A stretch of DNA of 64,000 bases. Source: Methylovulum psychrotolerans (GTDB taxonomy: Bacteria; Pseudomonadota; Gammaproteobacteria; Methylococcales; Methylomonadaceae). The stretch lies in assembly GCF_002923755.1 (NCBI RefSeq), contig NZ_PGFZ01000005.1, forward strand, positions 250,743-314,742, given 5' to 3'. The notes beneath the pieces are model-generated. The model saw only the letters and a list, made by a program, of their open reading frames with translations, did no database searches and was not told the DNA's origin. Every line of letters begins with the position of its first letter. The stretch's first letter is position 1. Below are positions 5,916 through 13,505 of this stretch, in pieces. Position numbers and translations under genes: made by a program.

Positions 5916-5947
5916 CCCTGTTGCCTGATCCGAGAAGTAAGCTAAGT

Positions 5948-8779
5948 ATGTCTGATAATTATATGTTCGCCAATGATGACCCTTTGGAATCGCTACGCAT
6001 CCCGCCGCATTCCATACCCGCCGAACAGGCGGTGCTGGGCGGGCTGATGCTGGACAACCAGACGTGGGATTCGGTCGCCGATAAGGTGCAGGAAGTCGAT
6101 TTTTACCGCCGCGACCATCGCCTGATTTTTCGGGTGATCGCCCAGCTTGCCGAAAAGCAGTCACCGTTTGACATTATCACCATTTCCGAAGCCTTAGCGG
6201 GTGAACTGGAAGATACTGGCGGCTTGGCGTATTTAGGTTGGTTGGCGAAAAACACCCCCAGCGCGGCGAATATCGTCACCTACGCCAATATTGTCCGTGA
6301 CCGCTCGGTACTGCGCCAGTTAATCCATGTCGGCACTACCATTGCCGATTCGGCGTTTAATCCCGAAGGCCGTGAAACCGCCGAGTTGTTGGAAAGTGCC
6401 GAACGCGAGGTGTTCAAAATCGCTGAGCAACGCCAGCGCGGGCAGGGCGGTTTTATCCCCATTAAGGCCTTGCTGGCCAAAGCGGTCGACCGTATCGAAA
6501 CTTTATTTGAGCAAGACGGCAATATCACCGGAGCGGCGACCGGGTTTTCGGATTTTGATCAACTTACCTCTGGATTGCAACCTGCTGATTTAATTATTGT
6601 TGCGGGTAGGCCGTCCATGGGCAAGTGTTTCGGCAAAGGTACGCCGATACTGATGTATTCGGGTGCGGTCAAGGCCGTGGAAGATATTCAGGTCGGTGAT
6701 GAGCTGATGGGCGATGACTCCACACCCAGACGGGTGTTGTCTTTGGCGCGTGGCCGTGAGGCCATGTATTGGGTGCGGCAAAATAAAGCGATGGCTTACC
6801 GTGTCAACCAAGCCCATATTTTGTCCTTGAAGCGCAGCCGTAATGACGGCAAGCACAAAAACGGCGATGTCCTGAATGTGCCGTTAACCGATTATCTGGC
6901 AGCTTCGGCCAAATTCCGTTCTAACTACAAAGGCTACAAAGTCGCGGTGGAGTTTACCGAACAGGCGTTGCCGTTTTGCCCGTATTTTCTCGGCTTATGG
7001 TTGGGCGATGGCGTAAGCGCGTCGGTGGATATAGCAACGACTGATGCCGAAGTCGTGGCTTATTTAAGGGACTATGCGGCGCAATTAAACTTGCAGTTGA
7101 CCGAAAAGTTCGCCAAAGATAAAGACGGCAACGATAAATGCCCCTTGTACAGCATTAGTTCACAGCAACGCGGCAACCATCAGAATCAGTTCTCTTTACA
7201 AAAAATACTCCGCGAACAGGGCTTGCTGAATAACAAACACATCCCCCAAGCCTTTTTGCTGAATTCCCGCGCCAACCGTTTAAAGCTGTTGGCAGGTTTG
7301 ATTGATAGCGACGGGCATTATGCCAGCCGCTATAAAATGTATGAGATAACCCAGAAAAACGCCGCCTTAGCGCGGCAAATTAAGTTCTTATGCGATAGTT
7401 TGGGGTATCGGACATCGCTAATCGAAAAACAAGCCAGCATTAAAGCCAGAGATTTTCAGACCACCGTGTATCGGGTGCGCTTTACTGGCGATGTGGACGC
7501 GATTCCGGTCAGGGTTGCCAGGAAAAAAGCCGCCGCTTGGGTATCTAACAGGACGTGGCAACAAACGGGCGTGTCCGTTGAATATGACGGCGTAGATGAT
7601 TATTACGGCTTTGTCTGTGATGGTAACCGATTATTTTTACTGGAAGATATGACGGTCGTGCATAACACGACCATCGCCATGAATATGGCGGAAAATATCG
7701 CCATTAAGAGCGACAAAGCGGTGGCGGTATTCAGTATGGAAATGCCGGGGGATGCCTTGGCGATGCGGATGATGTCGTCTTTAGGGCGTATTGACCAACA
7801 TAAAGTGCGCACGGGCAAGCTGGAGGATGACGAATGGCCCCGGTTGACCTCGGCGATTAACTTGTTGGCGGAAACCAAGCTGTTTATTGATGATACCCCG
7901 GCGCTGTCGCCCACCGAAGTGCGCTCACGCGCCCGGCGCTTGACCCGCGAACATGGGCAACTGGGGCTGATTGTGCTGGATTATTTGCAATTGATGCAAT
8001 CGCCTTCTAGCGGCGAGAACCGCGTCCAGCAAATTTCCGACATTTCGCGGGGCTTAAAGGCTTTGGCGAAAGAATTGAACGTCCCGGTTATTGCTTTGTC
8101 GCAGCTTAACCGGAATTTGGAGCAACGCCCGAACAAGCGGCCTGTTATGTCGGATTTGCGTGAATGTGTAACAGGCGATACCTTGGTGCTGTTGGCCGAT
8201 GGTCGCCGCTTGCCTATCAGCGAACTGGTCGGACAAACGCCAGAAGTGGTGTCGGTCTCGCCGCAAGGGCAGTTGCAAACTGCCGCTACCGATTTGGTTT
8301 GGTCGGTGGGGCGCAAAGAGATTGTTAAAGTTAGCCTTGCCAGTGGCCGCACTATACGTTGCACTAAAGAGCACCGTCTGCGCGGCTTATCGGATTGGCA
8401 GAGGGCAGGGCAGTTGCAGCCGGGTGATAAATTGCATACCTTAGCCGATAACGCTTTGGTTTGGGATAGGGTGGTTGCTATTGAACCCGCAGGTGAAGAA
8501 GAGGTGTTTGATTTGACCGTACCCGGCAATGCCTGTTGGTTGGCGGATGGCATCGTCAGCCATAATTCTGGCGCAATCGAACAGGATGCTGACTTGATTG
8601 TGTTTGTCTATCGTGATGAAGTCTACAACGAAGACAGCCCCGATAAAGGTATCGCCGAGATCATCATCGGCAAACAGCGTAACGGCCCGTTAGGTACGGT
8701 CAGGCTGACCTTTTTAGGTCAATACACTCGTTTTGAAAACTTTTCGGGGCAAAGTTACAGTGCCGAGGATTACGAATGA
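5948..8779 (+). CDS. dnaB: Replicative DNA helicase DnaB interrupted by two inteins
   Basis: A 943-residue precursor. Removing two protein-splicing elements leaves a 462-residue DnaB of normal length. The N-terminal domain runs to about residue 165 (IPPHSIPAEQAVLGGLMLD). The RecA-like helicase domain begins near FSDFDQLTSGLQ and contains Walker A GRPSMGK-TT, split by intein 1 at precursor residue 227, and Walker B IVLDYLQLM. A C-terminal region SDLRE-SGAIEQDADLI is split by intein 2. DnaB unwinds DNA at the replication fork. ATG 5948 is chosen from family alignment; no strong ribosome site is seen. It overlaps alr by 4 bp. The loader is probably DciA, encoded at 50.4-50.9 kb. Splicing is required for function because the first intein breaks the ATP-binding loop. 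Confidence 0.97.
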   Translation: MSDNYMFANDDPLESLRIPPHSIPAEQAVLGGLMLDNQTWDSVADKVQEVDFYRRDHRLIFRVIAQLAEKQSPFDIITISEALAGELEDTGGLAYLGWLAKNTPSAANIVTYANIVRDRSVLRQLIHVGTTIADSAFNPEGRETAELLESAEREVFKIAEQRQRGQGGFIPIKALLAKAVDRIETLFEQDGNITGAATGFSDFDQLTSGLQPADLIIVAGRPSMGKCFGKGTPILMYSGAVKAVEDIQVGDELMGDDSTPRRVLSLARGREAMYWVRQNKAMAYRVNQAHILSLKRSRNDGKHKNGDVLNVPLTDYLAASAKFRSNYKGYKVAVEFTEQALPFCPYFLGLWLGDGVSASVDIATTDAEVVAYLRDYAAQLNLQLTEKFAKDKDGNDKCPLYSISSQQRGNHQNQFSLQKILREQGLLNNKHIPQAFLLNSRANRLKLLAGLIDSDGHYASRYKMYEITQKNAALARQIKFLCDSLGYRTSLIEKQASIKARDFQTTVYRVRFTGDVDAIPVRVARKKAAAWVSNRTWQQTGVSVEYDGVDDYYGFVCDGNRLFLLEDMTVVHNTTIAMNMAENIAIKSDKAVAVFSMEMPGDALAMRMMSSLGRIDQHKVRTGKLEDDEWPRLTSAINLLAETKLFIDDTPALSPTEVRSRARRLTREHGQLGLIVLDYLQLMQSPSSGENRVQQISDISRGLKALAKELNVPVIALSQLNRNLEQRPNKRPVMSDLRECVTGDTLVLLADGRRLPISELVGQTPEVVSVSPQGQLQTAATDLVWSVGRKEIVKVSLASGRTIRCTKEHRLRGLSDWQRAGQLQPGDKLHTLADNALVWDRVVAIEPAGEEEVFDLTVPGNACWLADGIVSHNSGAIEQDADLIVFVYRDEVYNEDSPDKGIAEIIIGKQRNGPLGTVRLTFLGQYTRFENFSGQSYSAEDYE
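6626..7666 (+). mobile_element. DnaB intein 1 with LAGLIDADG homing endonuclease
   Basis: A 347-residue intein inserted in the Walker A loop between Lys and Thr (GRPSMGK|TT). It starts with Cys1, ends VVHN and is followed by Thr as the +1 nucleophile. The Hint splicing blocks are at residues ~1-70 and ~320-347 (FVCDGNRLFLLEDMTVVHN). Between them is a two-motif LAGLIDADG homing endonuclease: FLGLWLGDG at 121-129 and LLAGLIDSDG at 221-230, both keeping the acidic residue. It therefore looks competent for homing as well as splicing. Confidence 0.93.
8165..8566 (+). mobile_element. DnaB intein 2 (mini-intein)
   Basis: A 134-residue mini-intein inserted at SDLRE|SG. It begins CVTGDTLVLLADG, carries the block-B region with TKEH and ends with GIVSHN; the +1 residue is Ser. 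No endonuclease domain is present, so it can splice but should not be able to home by itself. The start and insertion point resemble the Rhodothermus marinus DnaB intein as I remember it. Confidence 0.93.
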
Positions 8780-9935: not shown

Positions 9936-10274
9936 GTGTCACAAACAGAAGCCTATTCGCTGGGCGTAAAAATTGCCTTTTGGTGCTTATGGTCGCTCTG
10001 TGCCGTATTTTTGCTGCCGTTTGCTTTTATTATCGTTCAATTGATAAATATAGGTTTTGTTAATGATCTCCCCAAGGATTGGGTAGTAATAGGCTGTTGG
10101 TCTTTCTTGGTAATGTCGGTAGGCGGCATTATTCTGTTCAGATTAGCCGACCAATTTTTACGGATGGTTCAACCTGCTTCTTTGCTTATCAGAAATATGG
10201 CTTTCACTGCGTTTGGTATACCTTTTGTCGCGTATGGGGGGTGTATGATAATGATATCGCCTTGGGGTAAATAG
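9936..10274 (+). CDS. Small multi-pass membrane protein, array copy 1
   Basis: A 112-residue protein of unknown function with three hydrophobic spans (about 12-38, 50-68 and 88-107). It shares a clear family pattern with the next three genes: M(S/P)xxExYSxxxKxxFWxxWxxC at the N-terminus, then QFL, SLLI and a C-terminal TFxxPFxAxGGC. Copy 1 has AYSLGVKIAFWCLW and FGIPFVAYGGC. The GGAGG before the ATG is a good ribosome site. The conserved terminal Cys and tryptophans mark a real protein family. It is the first gene of an apparent operon running to the radical SAM gene. Confidence 0.75.
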   Translation: MSQTEAYSLGVKIAFWCLWSLCAVFLLPFAFIIVQLINIGFVNDLPKDWVVIGCWSFLVMSVGGIILFRLADQFLRMVQPASLLIRNMAFTAFGIPFVAYGGCMIMISPWGK

Positions 10275-10303
10275 CCGCTTAAGTAAATGCTCAAGGATAG
10301 CAA

Positions 10304-10639
10304 ATGTCACAAATAGAAGCCTATTCACTAGGCGTAAAAGTTGCTTTTTGGTGCTTATGGTTGCTTTGTGCCGTATTTTTACTGCCGTTTGCTTATGTCA
10401 TGATTTACATGATCTGTGCTTCCCTAATGCCTATAGGTATTAAGTCCGCATTCGCCATAAACTGGCCAATAGGGAGTTGGCCTCTATTTTTGATATTGGC
10501 AGAAATCATTATCCTGTTCAGATCGGCCAGCCAATTTTTAAATAAGGCTAAACCCGCTTCTTTGCTTATCAAAAATATGGCTTTAACGGCGTTTGGTGCG
10601 CCTTTTATCGCCTTTGGGGGGTGCATAATAGCGGGGTAG
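10304..10639 (+). CDS. Small multi-pass membrane protein, array copy 2
   Basis: A 111-residue paralogue of the preceding protein, nearly identical to it in the first 30 residues (SQIEAYSLGVKVAFWCLW) and in the C-terminal block (PASLLIKNMALTAFG...GGC), but different in the central loop and second span. The leader AAGGATAGCAAATG resembles the leader of copy 1, so the unit of duplication included the ribosome-binding region. Function unknown. Confidence 0.75.
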   Translation: MSQIEAYSLGVKVAFWCLWLLCAVFLLPFAYVMIYMICASLMPIGIKSAFAINWPIGSWPLFLILAEIIILFRSASQFLNKAKPASLLIKNMALTAFGAPFIAFGGCIIAG

Positions 10640-10672
10640 GTAGCAAATTAAGTAAATGCCTGAGGATGGCAA

Positions 10673-11008
10673 ATGTCACCAATAGAAATCTATTCAATAG
10701 GGGAGAAAATTACTTTTTGGGTCGTGTGGCTTATCTGTCTTGGCTCTTTGTTGTTATTTTTGTTTGTCTTTTTTCCTATGATCCGTATAGGTTATCTGCC
10801 AATAGATTTCTGCGGTGTGATTATAGCCGGATGGAATGTAATGGGCATATTGGCGCAAAGCATTATCCTATTAAACTCGGCCAAGCAATTTTTTCTGAAA
10901 GCTAAGCCTGTTTCCATGCTTATTCAAAGGCTGGCGTTCATTACGTTTGGTATGCCTTTTCTTGCTTATGGTGGCTGCACATTGGTTACATTGGCCCGTT
11001 TTTGGTGA
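10673..11008 (+). CDS. Small multi-pass membrane protein, array copy 3
   Basis: A 111-residue, more divergent paralogue that keeps the family pattern: EIYSIGEKITFWVVWLIC, KQFFLKAKPVSMLI and TFGMPFLAYGGC. Three hydrophobic spans are predicted by eye. The leader GAGGATGGCAAATG again matches the earlier copies. Greater divergence from copies 1 and 2 suggests an older duplication. Function unknown. Confidence 0.72.
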   Translation: MSPIEIYSIGEKITFWVVWLICLGSLLLFLFVFFPMIRIGYLPIDFCGVIIAGWNVMGILAQSIILLNSAKQFFLKAKPVSMLIQRLAFITFGMPFLAYGGCTLVTLARFW

Positions 11009-11054
11009 ATACAACACGGGTAACGATATTTAGATAATAGACGAGGATAACGCT

Positions 11055-11378
11055 ATGCCACCCCTAGAACCCTATTCAATCGCCACAAAAATTGCGTTTT
11101 GGTTTTTGTGGCTTATCTGTGCCGCTTTTTTGTTGCTGGTTGTTCGTATGGCTCCTATGCTTAATATAGCGTTTTGGTCGATGCCTAAAGGGGGGGCGAT
11201 ACTATGGTTTTCATTGGTCATATTAGGGCAAGGCGGCATCCTGTTTAAGCTGACTAAGCAATTTTTGTGTAGGACGCTCGCCGCTTCTTTACTCATTAAT
11301 CGGCTGGCACTTACAACCTTTGCCCTGCCATTTGTTGCCGTCGGTGGCTGTAGCCTATTCATGATGTCTTTGAGCTAG
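11055..11378 (+). CDS. Small multi-pass membrane protein, array copy 4
   Basis: A 107-residue paralogue: LEPYSIATKIAFWFLWLIC, KQFLCRTLAASLLI and TFALPFVAVGGC. A strong GAGGATAACGCT leader precedes the ATG. Its stop codon is immediately followed by the ATG of the Lgt-like gene with no gap, which ties the array to the downstream enzyme genes by translational coupling. Function unknown; a partner or substrate role for the downstream membrane enzyme is a guess. Confidence 0.72.
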   Translation: MPPLEPYSIATKIAFWFLWLICAAFLLLVVRMAPMLNIAFWSMPKGGAILWFSLVILGQGGILFKLTKQFLCRTLAASLLINRLALTTFALPFVAVGGCSLFMMSLS

Positions 11379-12080
11379 ATGGCTATCCATATCCTGTTCG
11401 ACCTCTTGGCACTGGGCAGTGGCGTGTTCATCAGCCTCTGGTTTCGCCGCCAATATGGCTTAGTGCGTCCGGCGGGCATTACCCACGCGGCGCAGTACCA
11501 TTATTATTCAATCGCCCTGATGATGGGGCTAATTATCGGTAGTCTGTTGTTTGGTACGCTTAACCTGCATCTTGCCGGACAGGGCGGGGTGGCAAAAAGC
11601 ATGTTAGGGGGCGTATTTGGGGCGATTGTCGCGGCGGAGGCGTTTAAATATGTTGCCGTAATCCGCCAGTCTACCGGACTGTATTTTGTGCCGGGACTGA
11701 TTATGCTGATTTCGGTAGGGCGGGTAGGTTGTTTTTTGGCGGGTTTGCCGGATTTTACCTATGGTGTGCCGACGGCCTTGCCGTGGGGCGTGGATTTTGG
11801 TGATGGCATCCGCCGCCATCCGGTACAGTTGTATGAGTCTGTGGCTATGTTGGCGGCGTTAGCGGTTTTATTGCTGAACTATCCTAAGCATCCGGTATTT
11901 TGGCAGCGGCAAGGTTTTTATCTGTTTGTGCTGGTGTATGCCGGACAACGTTTTGTCTGGGAGTTTATCAAGCCTTATCCGCCCGTGTTGGCGGGGCTTA
12001 ACCTGTTCCATTGGTTAAGCTTGCTATTGGTGGGTTACGCGCTATTTATGCTGAATCGGGAGCAAACTCATGGCGAATAA
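11379..12080 (+). CDS. Lgt-like membrane protein (divergent prolipoprotein diacylglyceryl transferase family)
   Basis: A 233-residue polytopic protein with the Lgt layout: ISVGRVGCFLAGLPDFTYG (~111-129) followed by the Lgt signature GIRRHPVQLYES (~143-154). Canonical Lgt moves diacylglycerol from phosphatidylglycerol onto the lipobox cysteine. Here residues that I recall as essential are changed: the HGG motif reads LGG (L76), the Asn of GRxGN is Cys (C118), and the C-terminal Arg-x-Pro region reads KP (K198). A changed substrate is therefore likely and it should not be taken as the housekeeping lgt. It starts directly after the small-protein array and overlaps the radical SAM gene by 11 bp, so the genes are probably co-translated. 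Confidence 0.8.
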   Translation: MAIHILFDLLALGSGVFISLWFRRQYGLVRPAGITHAAQYHYYSIALMMGLIIGSLLFGTLNLHLAGQGGVAKSMLGGVFGAIVAAEAFKYVAVIRQSTGLYFVPGLIMLISVGRVGCFLAGLPDFTYGVPTALPWGVDFGDGIRRHPVQLYESVAMLAALAVLLLNYPKHPVFWQRQGFYLFVLVYAGQRFVWEFIKPYPPVLAGLNLFHWLSLLLVGYALFMLNREQTHGE

Positions 12081-13452
12081 AGCCCGCCCTTATCTGTTCT
12101 ATGGGCAGACGCAATCGCTATGCGAGGTCTGTCTTGCCGTTGTGCCTGCGAAAATTATTTTTCAACAGGGCAATGTCTATTATCAGAAGCGTTGCCTTGA
12201 GCACGGTGTCCAGAAAACCCTGGTGTCCACTGATATTGCCTATTTCAAACGCTGCAAGGAGTATCTGAAACCCGGCGACATGCCCGGCAAATTCCAAACG
12301 GCAATCCAGCACGGCTGTCCGCACGACTGTGGTTTATGCCCCGACCATGAGCAACATTCCTGCTTAGCTTTGTTCGACATTATTGACGAATGCAATATGT
12401 ATTGCCCGGTTTGTTTCGCTAATTCCGCACCCGGCAAAGGCAATCCCCGCAGCCTTGAAGATATTGAAAAAATGCTGCAAACGCTGTTGGCGAGCGAACA
12501 AGAGCCGGATTTGGTGCAGGTGTCCGGCGGTGAGCCGACCTTGCATCCGCACTTGCTGACGATTTTGCGCCGCCTGAAAGCCAGCCCGATTCGCCATCTG
12601 ATGCTCAACACTAACGGCATCCGTATCGCGCGTGATCCTGAACTGGTTGCCGGGCTGGCAAGCCTGATGCCGGGCTTTGAGGTTTATCTGCAATTTGATT
12701 CGCTAAAAGCGTCCGCTTTGCAGAACATACGCGGCCAGGATATGCGCAACATCCGCATTAAGGCTTTGGAAAACTTGGAGCGGCACAATATATCCACCAC
12801 CTTGGTGTGTGTCATCCGCAAAGGCGTGAACGATGATGAAATTGGCGAGCTGATCCAGTTTGCCCAGCAATGGCGGTGTGTGCGTGGCGTTACCTTCCAG
12901 CCTGTGCAAGATGCCGGGCGCAACGAAATGGACGCGGACACGGCGGAGGGCAACCGGGGCGGACGTATAACCTTAAGCGAAATCCGTACCCGCATCATTG
13001 AGGCGGACAACCCGTTTGGCGATGCTGATATGATCCCTCTGCCTTGCCATCCCGAAAATATTGCCATCGGTTACGGCATCAAATCGGCTGGAACTATTGT
13101 GCCAGTGACGGGCTTATTGCCGCGTGAAGAGCTGCTCCAAGGTGTGACCAACACCATTACCTTTGAAAAAAGCGCGGGCTTGCGTGAGGCGTTTTTAAAG
13201 CTGTTTTCGCTGGATATGTGCAGTGAAAAAACCGCTGAAAATCTCAATACTCTGTTGTGTTGCCTGCCGCGTATCCAAGGTGGTGGGCTCACGTATGAAA
13301 ACGTCTTTCGGGTGGTCATTATCGCCTTTATGGACAAATACAGTTTTGACATCGGCTCAGTCAAACGCTCCTGTATCCACTTTGTCGAGCCGGACGGGAA
13401 AATTTACCCGTTTGACACTTGGAATTTATTTTATCGGGATAAACGCCCTTAG
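12070..13452 (+). CDS. Radical SAM protein resembling tetraether/membrane-spanning lipid synthases
   Basis: A 460-residue radical SAM enzyme. The N-terminus has a metal-site pattern C18-x2-C21 ... C42-x2-H45 (KRCLEHG). Next comes HGCPHDCGLCPDH (C83, C87, C90) and then the SAM-cluster motif CNMYCPVC (C108, C112, C115). SGGEPTLHP is the SAM-binding GGE region. This succession, CxxC/CxEHG/CPxDCGLC/CNxxCPxC, matches the MJ0619-type family that contains archaeal tetraether lipid synthase (Tes), which couples lipid tails through C-C bonds. The C-terminal ~150 residues hold more cysteines. It overlaps the Lgt-like gene, which also suggests a lipid substrate. The exact reaction here is unknown. Confidence 0.8.
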   Translation: MANKARPYLFYGQTQSLCEVCLAVVPAKIIFQQGNVYYQKRCLEHGVQKTLVSTDIAYFKRCKEYLKPGDMPGKFQTAIQHGCPHDCGLCPDHEQHSCLALFDIIDECNMYCPVCFANSAPGKGNPRSLEDIEKMLQTLLASEQEPDLVQVSGGEPTLHPHLLTILRRLKASPIRHLMLNTNGIRIARDPELVAGLASLMPGFEVYLQFDSLKASALQNIRGQDMRNIRIKALENLERHNISTTLVCVIRKGVNDDEIGELIQFAQQWRCVRGVTFQPVQDAGRNEMDADTAEGNRGGRITLSEIRTRIIEADNPFGDADMIPLPCHPENIAIGYGIKSAGTIVPVTGLLPREELLQGVTNTITFEKSAGLREAFLKLFSLDMCSEKTAENLNTLLCCLPRIQGGGLTYENVFRVVIIAFMDKYSFDIGSVKRSCIHFVEPDGKIYPFDTWNLFYRDKRP

Positions 13453-13463
13453 TGTGCATCCTC

Positions 13464-13505
13464 AGGCCTGTTAGCTTGTCATAAAAATGACAAGCTAACA
13501 GGCCT
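13464..13505. terminator. Perfect 18-bp hairpin ending the membrane-protein/radical-SAM operon
   Basis: AGGCCTGTTAGCTTGTCA, loop TAAAAA, then the perfect complement. It lies between the convergent radical SAM and ModC-like genes. There is no T-tract; symmetry and position suggest bidirectional termination. Confidence 0.65.

Follow-up and report, generated by a model that had tools for sequence, protein, structure and literature searches.

The genes described here have their closest described relatives in two enzyme families. One is Lgt (PF01790; E. coli structures 5AZB/5AZC), whose acceptors carry N-terminal lipoboxes. Both His103 (PMC4728403) and Asn146 (the Asn146Ala variant is inactive, PMC8689077) are essential in the E. 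coli enzyme. The other is Tes, or GDGT-MAS (NF045702; MJ0619, structure 7TOL), a radical S-adenosylmethionine (SAM) enzyme in which Tyr459 and Met439 were reported to be fully conserved among 1,000 archaeal sequences, and of which Y459F and M439A variants remain active (PMC9433317). Bacterial Tes homologues have been proposed to synthesise branched glycerol dialkyl glycerol tetraethers (brGDGT; Zeng et al., PMC8941075), a role still unconfirmed (PMC11868695). We report on a locus of Methylovulum psychrotolerans where relatives of both enzymes are adjacent. In a stretch of 64,000 nucleotides (the window; contig NZ_PGFZ01000005.1, positions 250,743 to 314,742), six genes at 9936-13452, all on the + strand, encode four paralogous proteins with three predicted transmembrane (TM) helices each, an Lgt-family protein and a radical SAM enzyme of the Tes superfamily (hereafter rSAM), and are followed by a hairpin. 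What is new is that nearly every Lgt-rSAM locus has tiny membrane proteins sharing one invariant cysteine. No description of the combination of Lgt, rSAM and cysteine protein was found in the open-licence papers searched.

The six genes are tightly packed, with gaps of 29, 33, 46 and 0 bp in order, and an 11-bp overlap between the Lgt-like and rSAM genes, exactly as a preliminary description of this DNA had stated. Judging from spacing and conservation, they are probably co-transcribed; a promoter scan gave no signal above chance. Co-occurrence of the three parts in other genomes, on which the preliminary description had let its reading depend, was found as well. One genome of each species was scanned with the Lgt-like protein as query, which gave 80 loci; in 77 of them, rSAM adjoins or is near the Lgt-like gene. 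These loci span Thiothrix, Gallionella, many Alphaproteobacteria including Bradyrhizobium, Campylobacterota, Rhodanobacter/Dyella, Acidobacteriota, Cyanobacteriota and Planctomycetota.

Whole-genome counts, free of selection by Lgt similarity, were made on 644 genomes from four phyla. There, 34 of the 37 rSAM carriers hold an Lgt-like gene, with the two genes at most 3 kb apart on one contig in 32 cases; the neighbourhood is thus conserved. Among 200 Pseudomonadota, the Lgt-like gene was present in seven genomes and rSAM in the identical seven (7/7), Lgt-like calls scoring at least 224 bits and the next best match 87 bits. All 10 rSAM carriers among 149 Acidobacteriota have the Lgt-like gene; one further acidobacterial genome has the Lgt-like gene without rSAM, and its contig ends directly behind the gene. 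The figures were 6 of 7 carriers for Cyanobacteriota (146 genomes), one pair being split over contig ends, and 11 of 13 for Planctomycetota (149 genomes), one being a diverged adjacent copy. Because the same gene pair recurs across phyla, the six-gene arrangement is far beyond chance. Within the window's own genus, rSAM is absent from all 19 other sampled genomes. Since, in addition, the nearest relatives of the window proteins are found in Thiothrix and Gallionella, horizontal transfer of the system into this genome seems likely.

The four small proteins of the window share approximately 42-59% identity (tblastn). Protein 1 (9936..10274, 112 residues, GTG start) carries its invariant cysteine at position 103 (codon 10242-10244), in '...AFGIPFVAYGGC', close to the end of TM3; its AlphaFold 2 (AF2) helices cover residues 9-43, 47-76 and 81-107. 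In protein 2 (10304..10639, 111 residues) it is Cys107 (codon 10622-10624), in 'PFIAFGGC', in protein 3 (10673..11008, 111 residues) Cys102 (codon 10976-10978), in 'PFLAYGGC', and in protein 4 (11055..11378, 107 residues) Cys99 (codon 11349-11351), in 'PFVAVGGC'. No Pfam, NCBIfam or PHROG family was found for the small proteins of such operons, only weak sub-threshold matches, the NCBIfam and PHROGs searches being limited to window proteins.

At least one small TM protein occupies the operon slots of 80 out of 101 loci, a set in which some loci are counted more than once. Mostly one to four tiny membrane proteins are present per locus, with very divergent sequences. The 129 operon proteins fall into 33 BLAST clusters, and all 11 clusters with several members have a cysteine column conserved at 100%. 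In the three largest (50, 19 and 15 proteins), only three or four columns are conserved at 95% or more, the cysteine always among them; for the window-type proteins, the invariant columns are M1, F15, W16, W19, L27 and the cysteine.

A motif surrounds this residue: K/R, about 19 uncharged residues, then [GA][GAL]C, the cysteine ending a helix predicted to run from inside to outside, at the outer face. The cysteine belongs to TM1 in alphaproteobacteria and some acidobacteria, and to the last TM, followed by a tail of 2-15 residues, in most other lineages; in both topologies the helix is directed from the K/R-rich side to the cysteine. The nearest charge upstream is K/R in 115 out of 127 proteins, with a median spacer of 19; position -2 is G/A in 101, and position -1 L/G/A in 103 of the 127. 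The motif was present in 107 of 129 operon proteins, versus 1 of 39 small TM control open reading frames (ORFs) drawn from the flanks of the same loci and 15 of 218 for all TM ORFs; related sequences are not independent, so that p-values overstate this difference and it is safer to go by how many separate clusters there are. The lone control ORF with the motif turned out to be an operon gene overlooked by the gap rule.

A cationic residue, an uncharged hydrophobic helix, small residues and a cysteine at the outer membrane face are also the features of a lipoprotein signal with its lipobox. Unlike such a signal, the present motif lies within multi-pass proteins, in their first or last TM, or within tiny proteins that have a single TM, and its consensus is [GA][GAL]C, with Leu common at -1. 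This suggests a look-alike of a lipoprotein signal peptide, embedded within a protein, multi-pass or tiny single-pass, that mostly stays uncleaved; cleavage by LspA seems unlikely in the many of them that have Leu at -1. The array proteins had been proposed earlier as substrates, scaffolds or carriers, and the presence of an invariant lipobox-like cysteine in every lineage makes substrates the likely choice.

The fifth gene (11379..12080, 233 residues, seven predicted helices) does encode an Lgt-family protein, as first described. It matches PF01790 with 62.2 bits (cut-off 24.9, E 6e-17) and 5AZB by profile (E 1.2e-11), with the same helix order, and falls under the cut-offs of the equivalog models (NF000778, 43.4 versus 334; NF000775, 29.3 versus 428; TIGR00544, 15.2 versus 118.9). 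A separate canonical lgt exists in the same genome (G000:C23, 274 bits), and the operon gene is therefore a paralogue, not the housekeeping enzyme. All 73 paralogue sequences (73/73) retain the E. coli Lgt residues R143, G154, E202, Y235 and R239 (R115, E153, Y187 and R191 of the window protein are equivalent to R143, E202, Y235 and R239), and the positions of E243 and R246 hold E/D and K/R, respectively. The kept residues serve the phospholipid head and C3 pocket, and those lost, taken up below, are the thiol-activating histidine and a pocket asparagine (PMC4728403, PMC8689077). Tyr26 is replaced by D or E wherever this position aligned, the head domain is smaller, and four invariant residues are new to the paralogue: E87, K90, T99 and G100. 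Predicted helices and the positive-inside rule would place these four at the cytoplasmic side, as a possible docking face for rSAM. The AF2 model has seven helices, with a predicted local distance difference test (pLDDT) score of 92.7. We consider it quite likely that the paralogue is active.

Natural variants of the locus bear on the role of the cysteine. In a Holophagaceae locus (L078), three tiny single-TM proteins end just past it, with endings such as '..LVFGACFPRLR', '..LLVFGACFPRLR' and '..ALLAFGACSLPH'. Lipoprotein-like proteins sometimes fill the small-protein slot ('GLGALVYGWACNPY', 'IVAWFASEACSLYPP'), among them the single-TM ones of genomes G403, G377 and G369 ('MKARIVAFLGLGALVYGWACNPY', 'LLIVAWFASEACSLYPP' and 'ALVGWFATQACFPIL'). 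Where rSAM has no Lgt-like gene nearby, a lipoprotein-like gene adjoins it in G363, G636 (DUF547) and G679; in G576, on a short contig, the neighbour is DUF547-like with a less clear start, and in G696, where the contig end is close, no lipoprotein-like neighbour was seen. In G679 and G696, the search for the Lgt-like gene covered the rSAM flank only. At L162 (5227-6126), in a planctomycete lacking the Lgt-like gene, the DUF547 lipoprotein-like protein overlaps the rSAM gene at its end. Genome G675 has an orphan window-type small protein that has lost the cysteine, with SGW ('VISGW') where others read GGC; no group I rSAM match was found in this genome and no pair gene on the 5.4-kb contig fragment. 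Another planctomycete locus (L163, G625 C10:3731000-3743000) combines a mid-scoring rSAM, outside the tree sampling, with an Lgt-like gene that has diverged and with three small TM proteins of the zinc-ribbon kind having a cysteine near the C-terminus. This makes it a second form of the system. The system is followed, in several alphaproteobacteria, by a rhomboid-type intramembrane protease whose GASG motif was recognised by eye (L021:5243-5821, L023:8482-9072, L034:6268-6849); its position may be due to chance, or it may act in processing the cysteine-helix proteins.

These elements can be assembled into a three-part protein-lipidation system, in which the Lgt paralogue lipidates the small-protein cysteine and rSAM modifies that lipid, a model whose chances we hold to be evenly balanced. 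The cation-helix-[GA][GAL]C segment of the small membrane proteins would end in a cysteine presented on the outer side of the inner membrane. The paralogue would bind a phospholipid via its conserved Arg/Tyr/Glu pocket and transfer the (di)acylglyceryl part to this cysteine, without His103 and with its own invariant Cys118 involved; a replacement base might be found in the near-invariant His4 or in the D/E at position 8. Next, rSAM would act on a C-H position of the lipid, functionalising or coupling tails, for example. Either the tail ends would reach the bilayer centre, giving access to rSAM, or the lipid would be modified before transfer. The model is built on direct observations, namely rSAM/Lgt-like linkage, residue invariance (including the 73/73 pocket) and the geometry of the embedded cysteine motif, to which the lipoprotein-like replacements and the cysteine loss in G675 are added. 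Taking the steps separately, the small-protein cysteine is probably the acceptor of the paralogue, and action of rSAM on the attached lipid falls slightly short of an even case. A more far-reaching version is rather doubtful: a new class of membrane lipoproteins, uncleaved and multi-pass, whose internal outer-face cysteine would be lipidated by the Lgt paralogue, and whose acyl tails would be modified, or coupled across the bilayer mid-plane, by the Tes-superfamily enzyme, giving a protein-anchored unusual, possibly membrane-spanning, lipid.

Several points weigh against the three-part model. The position of His103 (HGGL motif) is V/L/E/A/I/T and never His in the 73 paralogues (Leu76 in the window protein), and that of Asn146, a residue of the Lgt signature motif, is Cys in 73/73 (C118 in the window protein, codon 11730-11732). 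With these two residues gone, the paralogue may differ in activity and in the acceptor it chooses, or it may bind lipid without catalysis. A strict lipobox, [LV][ASTVI][GAS]C (consensus from PMC8689077), after an N-terminal signal peptide is not found in the window proteins, where the third TM helix has A[YFV]GGC instead, and many alphaproteobacterial small proteins have Leu at -1. A few loci (e.g. L027, L064, L092) have no small cysteine gene nearby. The Foldseek search with the Lgt-like model gave no significant match among solved structures, Lgt included; run without a positive control, it can be read neither way. Finally, rSAM is predicted to be cytoplasmic and the small-protein cysteine periplasmic, which leaves the access of rSAM to the lipid unexplained.

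The sixth gene (12070..13452, 460 residues), identified by family profile and cysteine motifs, the latter being as first described, matches Tes over its full length via the family profile, 7TOL being its closest solved relative. Domain order is shared, and so are the rubredoxin-type site (C18-C21-C42-H45, with H45 replaced by Cys in 6/71 sequences), the ligands of the N-terminal 4Fe-4S cluster (C83-C87-C90, plus H93/H96) and the radical SAM (RS) cluster motif (C108-C112-C115). Differences lie in the Cys of Tes 'PFC', which is usually Asp in the Lgt-linked proteins, and in the C-terminal cysteines: C326, C397, C398 and C435 are invariant, and only C435 is matched to a Tes cysteine in the alignment. 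One could then suppose that rSAM is a bacterial Tes coupling the tails of free phospholipids into membrane-spanning lipids (brGDGT), that the Lgt-like protein presents lipids to it, and that the small proteins are accessory. The agreement of the three metal sites is in its favour, and tail coupling was proposed for bacterial Tes homologues generally (PMC8941075). However, the score against the Tes model NF045702 is 267.5 bits, below its cut-off of 450. The best-scoring NCBIfam model is TrsS (NF045646), aligned over the full length, at 287.6 bits for a cut-off of 490. In the tree, all 26 Lgt-linked rSAM proteins, bacterial and encoded beside an Lgt paralogue, form one clade with 100/100 support, whereas Tes, represented by 7TOL and by acidobacterial proteins that pass the Tes cut-off, groups with TrsS across a 100/99 branch; the TrsS-scoring proteins L101 and L117 also branch with Tes, outside the Lgt-linked clade. 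The Tyr459 position is F/I/M in 71/71 sequences and that of Met439 is V/M/S/I/L. Acidobacteriota possess true Tes separately from the Lgt-linked rSAM, and free-tail coupling gives no account of the invariant cysteine of the small proteins. Scores, clade and key residues thus lead us to reject membership in Tes or TrsS, and the coupling of free tails is improbable.

Loss of Tyr459 and Met439 marks a different family with tail chemistry still possible, since Tes remains active with Y459F or M439A. Coupling itself cannot be assumed for rSAM, given its separate clade and the absence of both residues. The lipid-tail coupler implied earlier by the term 'Tes-like' is therefore not retained. In the phylogeny, where grouping with a non-lipid family was to count against the earlier reading, the nearest relatives include both Tes, a lipid enzyme, and TrsS, of unknown function, and the clade is neither. 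The broader lipid or lipoprotein theme is supported, so that the earlier interpretation stands in part. Sister rSAM loci (L096, L097, L116, L129, L130) showed no Lgt or small-cysteine partner in the flanks examined. Three of them, L129, L130 and L116 (Acidobacteriota; rSAM near 6000-7700), score about 400 bits to the Lgt-linked rSAM profile and have as neighbours a methyltransferase-like gene and an NAD-linked disulfide oxidoreductase-like gene, both named by eye.

Instead of accepting lipid, the small proteins might serve a membrane complex as structural or redox subunits, for example by disulfide exchange between their cysteine and Cys118. Both partners indeed have an invariant cysteine, each predicted at a periplasmic helix end. 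On the other hand, the charge-helix-small-Cys geometry of the motif is that of lipoprotein signals, some loci have lipoprotein-like genes in place of the small proteins, and a copy number of 1 to 4 is unlike that of a fixed subunit. We regard a purely structural or redox role as unlikely.

Alternatively, ordinary Lgt could lipidate the small proteins, with the paralogue and rSAM making a special lipid donor for another use. Canonical Lgt is available in the genome, and the rSAM loci of G363, G636 and G679 do without the paralogue. But the paralogue, rSAM and cysteine proteins are tightly linked, and the cysteine is mostly found in proteins of the multi-pass kind, on which Lgt does not usually act, so that this division of labour has little probability. 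Direct modification of the cysteine or nearby residues by rSAM, in the manner of a maturase of ribosomally synthesised and post-translationally modified peptides (RiPP), with the Lgt-like protein as an inactive helix-holding scaffold, would fit the loss of His103 and Asn146 and the fact that radical SAM enzymes with auxiliary clusters often modify peptides, yet it is hardly probable, as the small proteins have no conserved core beside the cysteine, which also disfavours reading them as RiPP precursors, and a tail varying from 2 to about 60 residues, the cysteine is predicted at the face opposite to cytoplasmic rSAM, and the polar Lgt pocket is retained in 73/73. An anti-phage (pVip) reading was discarded, the PADLOC match being weak (45 bits) and covering the radical SAM core only.

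Downstream of the system, at 13464..13505 (+), between the convergent rSAM and ABC-transporter genes, lies the hairpin, which is perfect, as reported before, and has a stem of 19 bp rather than 18, with an AAAA loop. Its RNA fold has z = -9.2 relative to shuffles, and it is one of a kind within the window. As it has no U-tract, the label of terminator is unproven; it could be a terminator, an mRNA end or a mobile-element scar. The small-protein array (9936-11378) is locally AT-rich, with about 41-44% GC versus 51-56% around. Upstream, at 5921-8779 (+), a 952-residue frame encodes a DnaB helicase with two inteins inserted, the first with a LAGLIDADG homing endonuclease (near residues 236-524), the second a mini-intein without endonuclease that ends near residue 882.

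In lipid geochemistry, bacterial 'Tes homologues' serve as hints of membrane-spanning-lipid producers (PMC8941075, PMC11868695). In the 200 Pseudomonadota genomes, every Tes-superfamily match at E 1e-30 or better belongs to the Lgt-linked clade, and the brGDGT proposal should therefore not be extended to this clade. A gene cluster common to many bacterial phyla suggests an undescribed route placing a modified lipid on membrane proteins. If this is true, lipidation of bacterial membrane proteins would not be confined to N-terminal lipoboxes, Lgt would have a paralogue, undescribed so far, whose active site has been rebuilt, and protein lipidation would involve a radical SAM enzyme.

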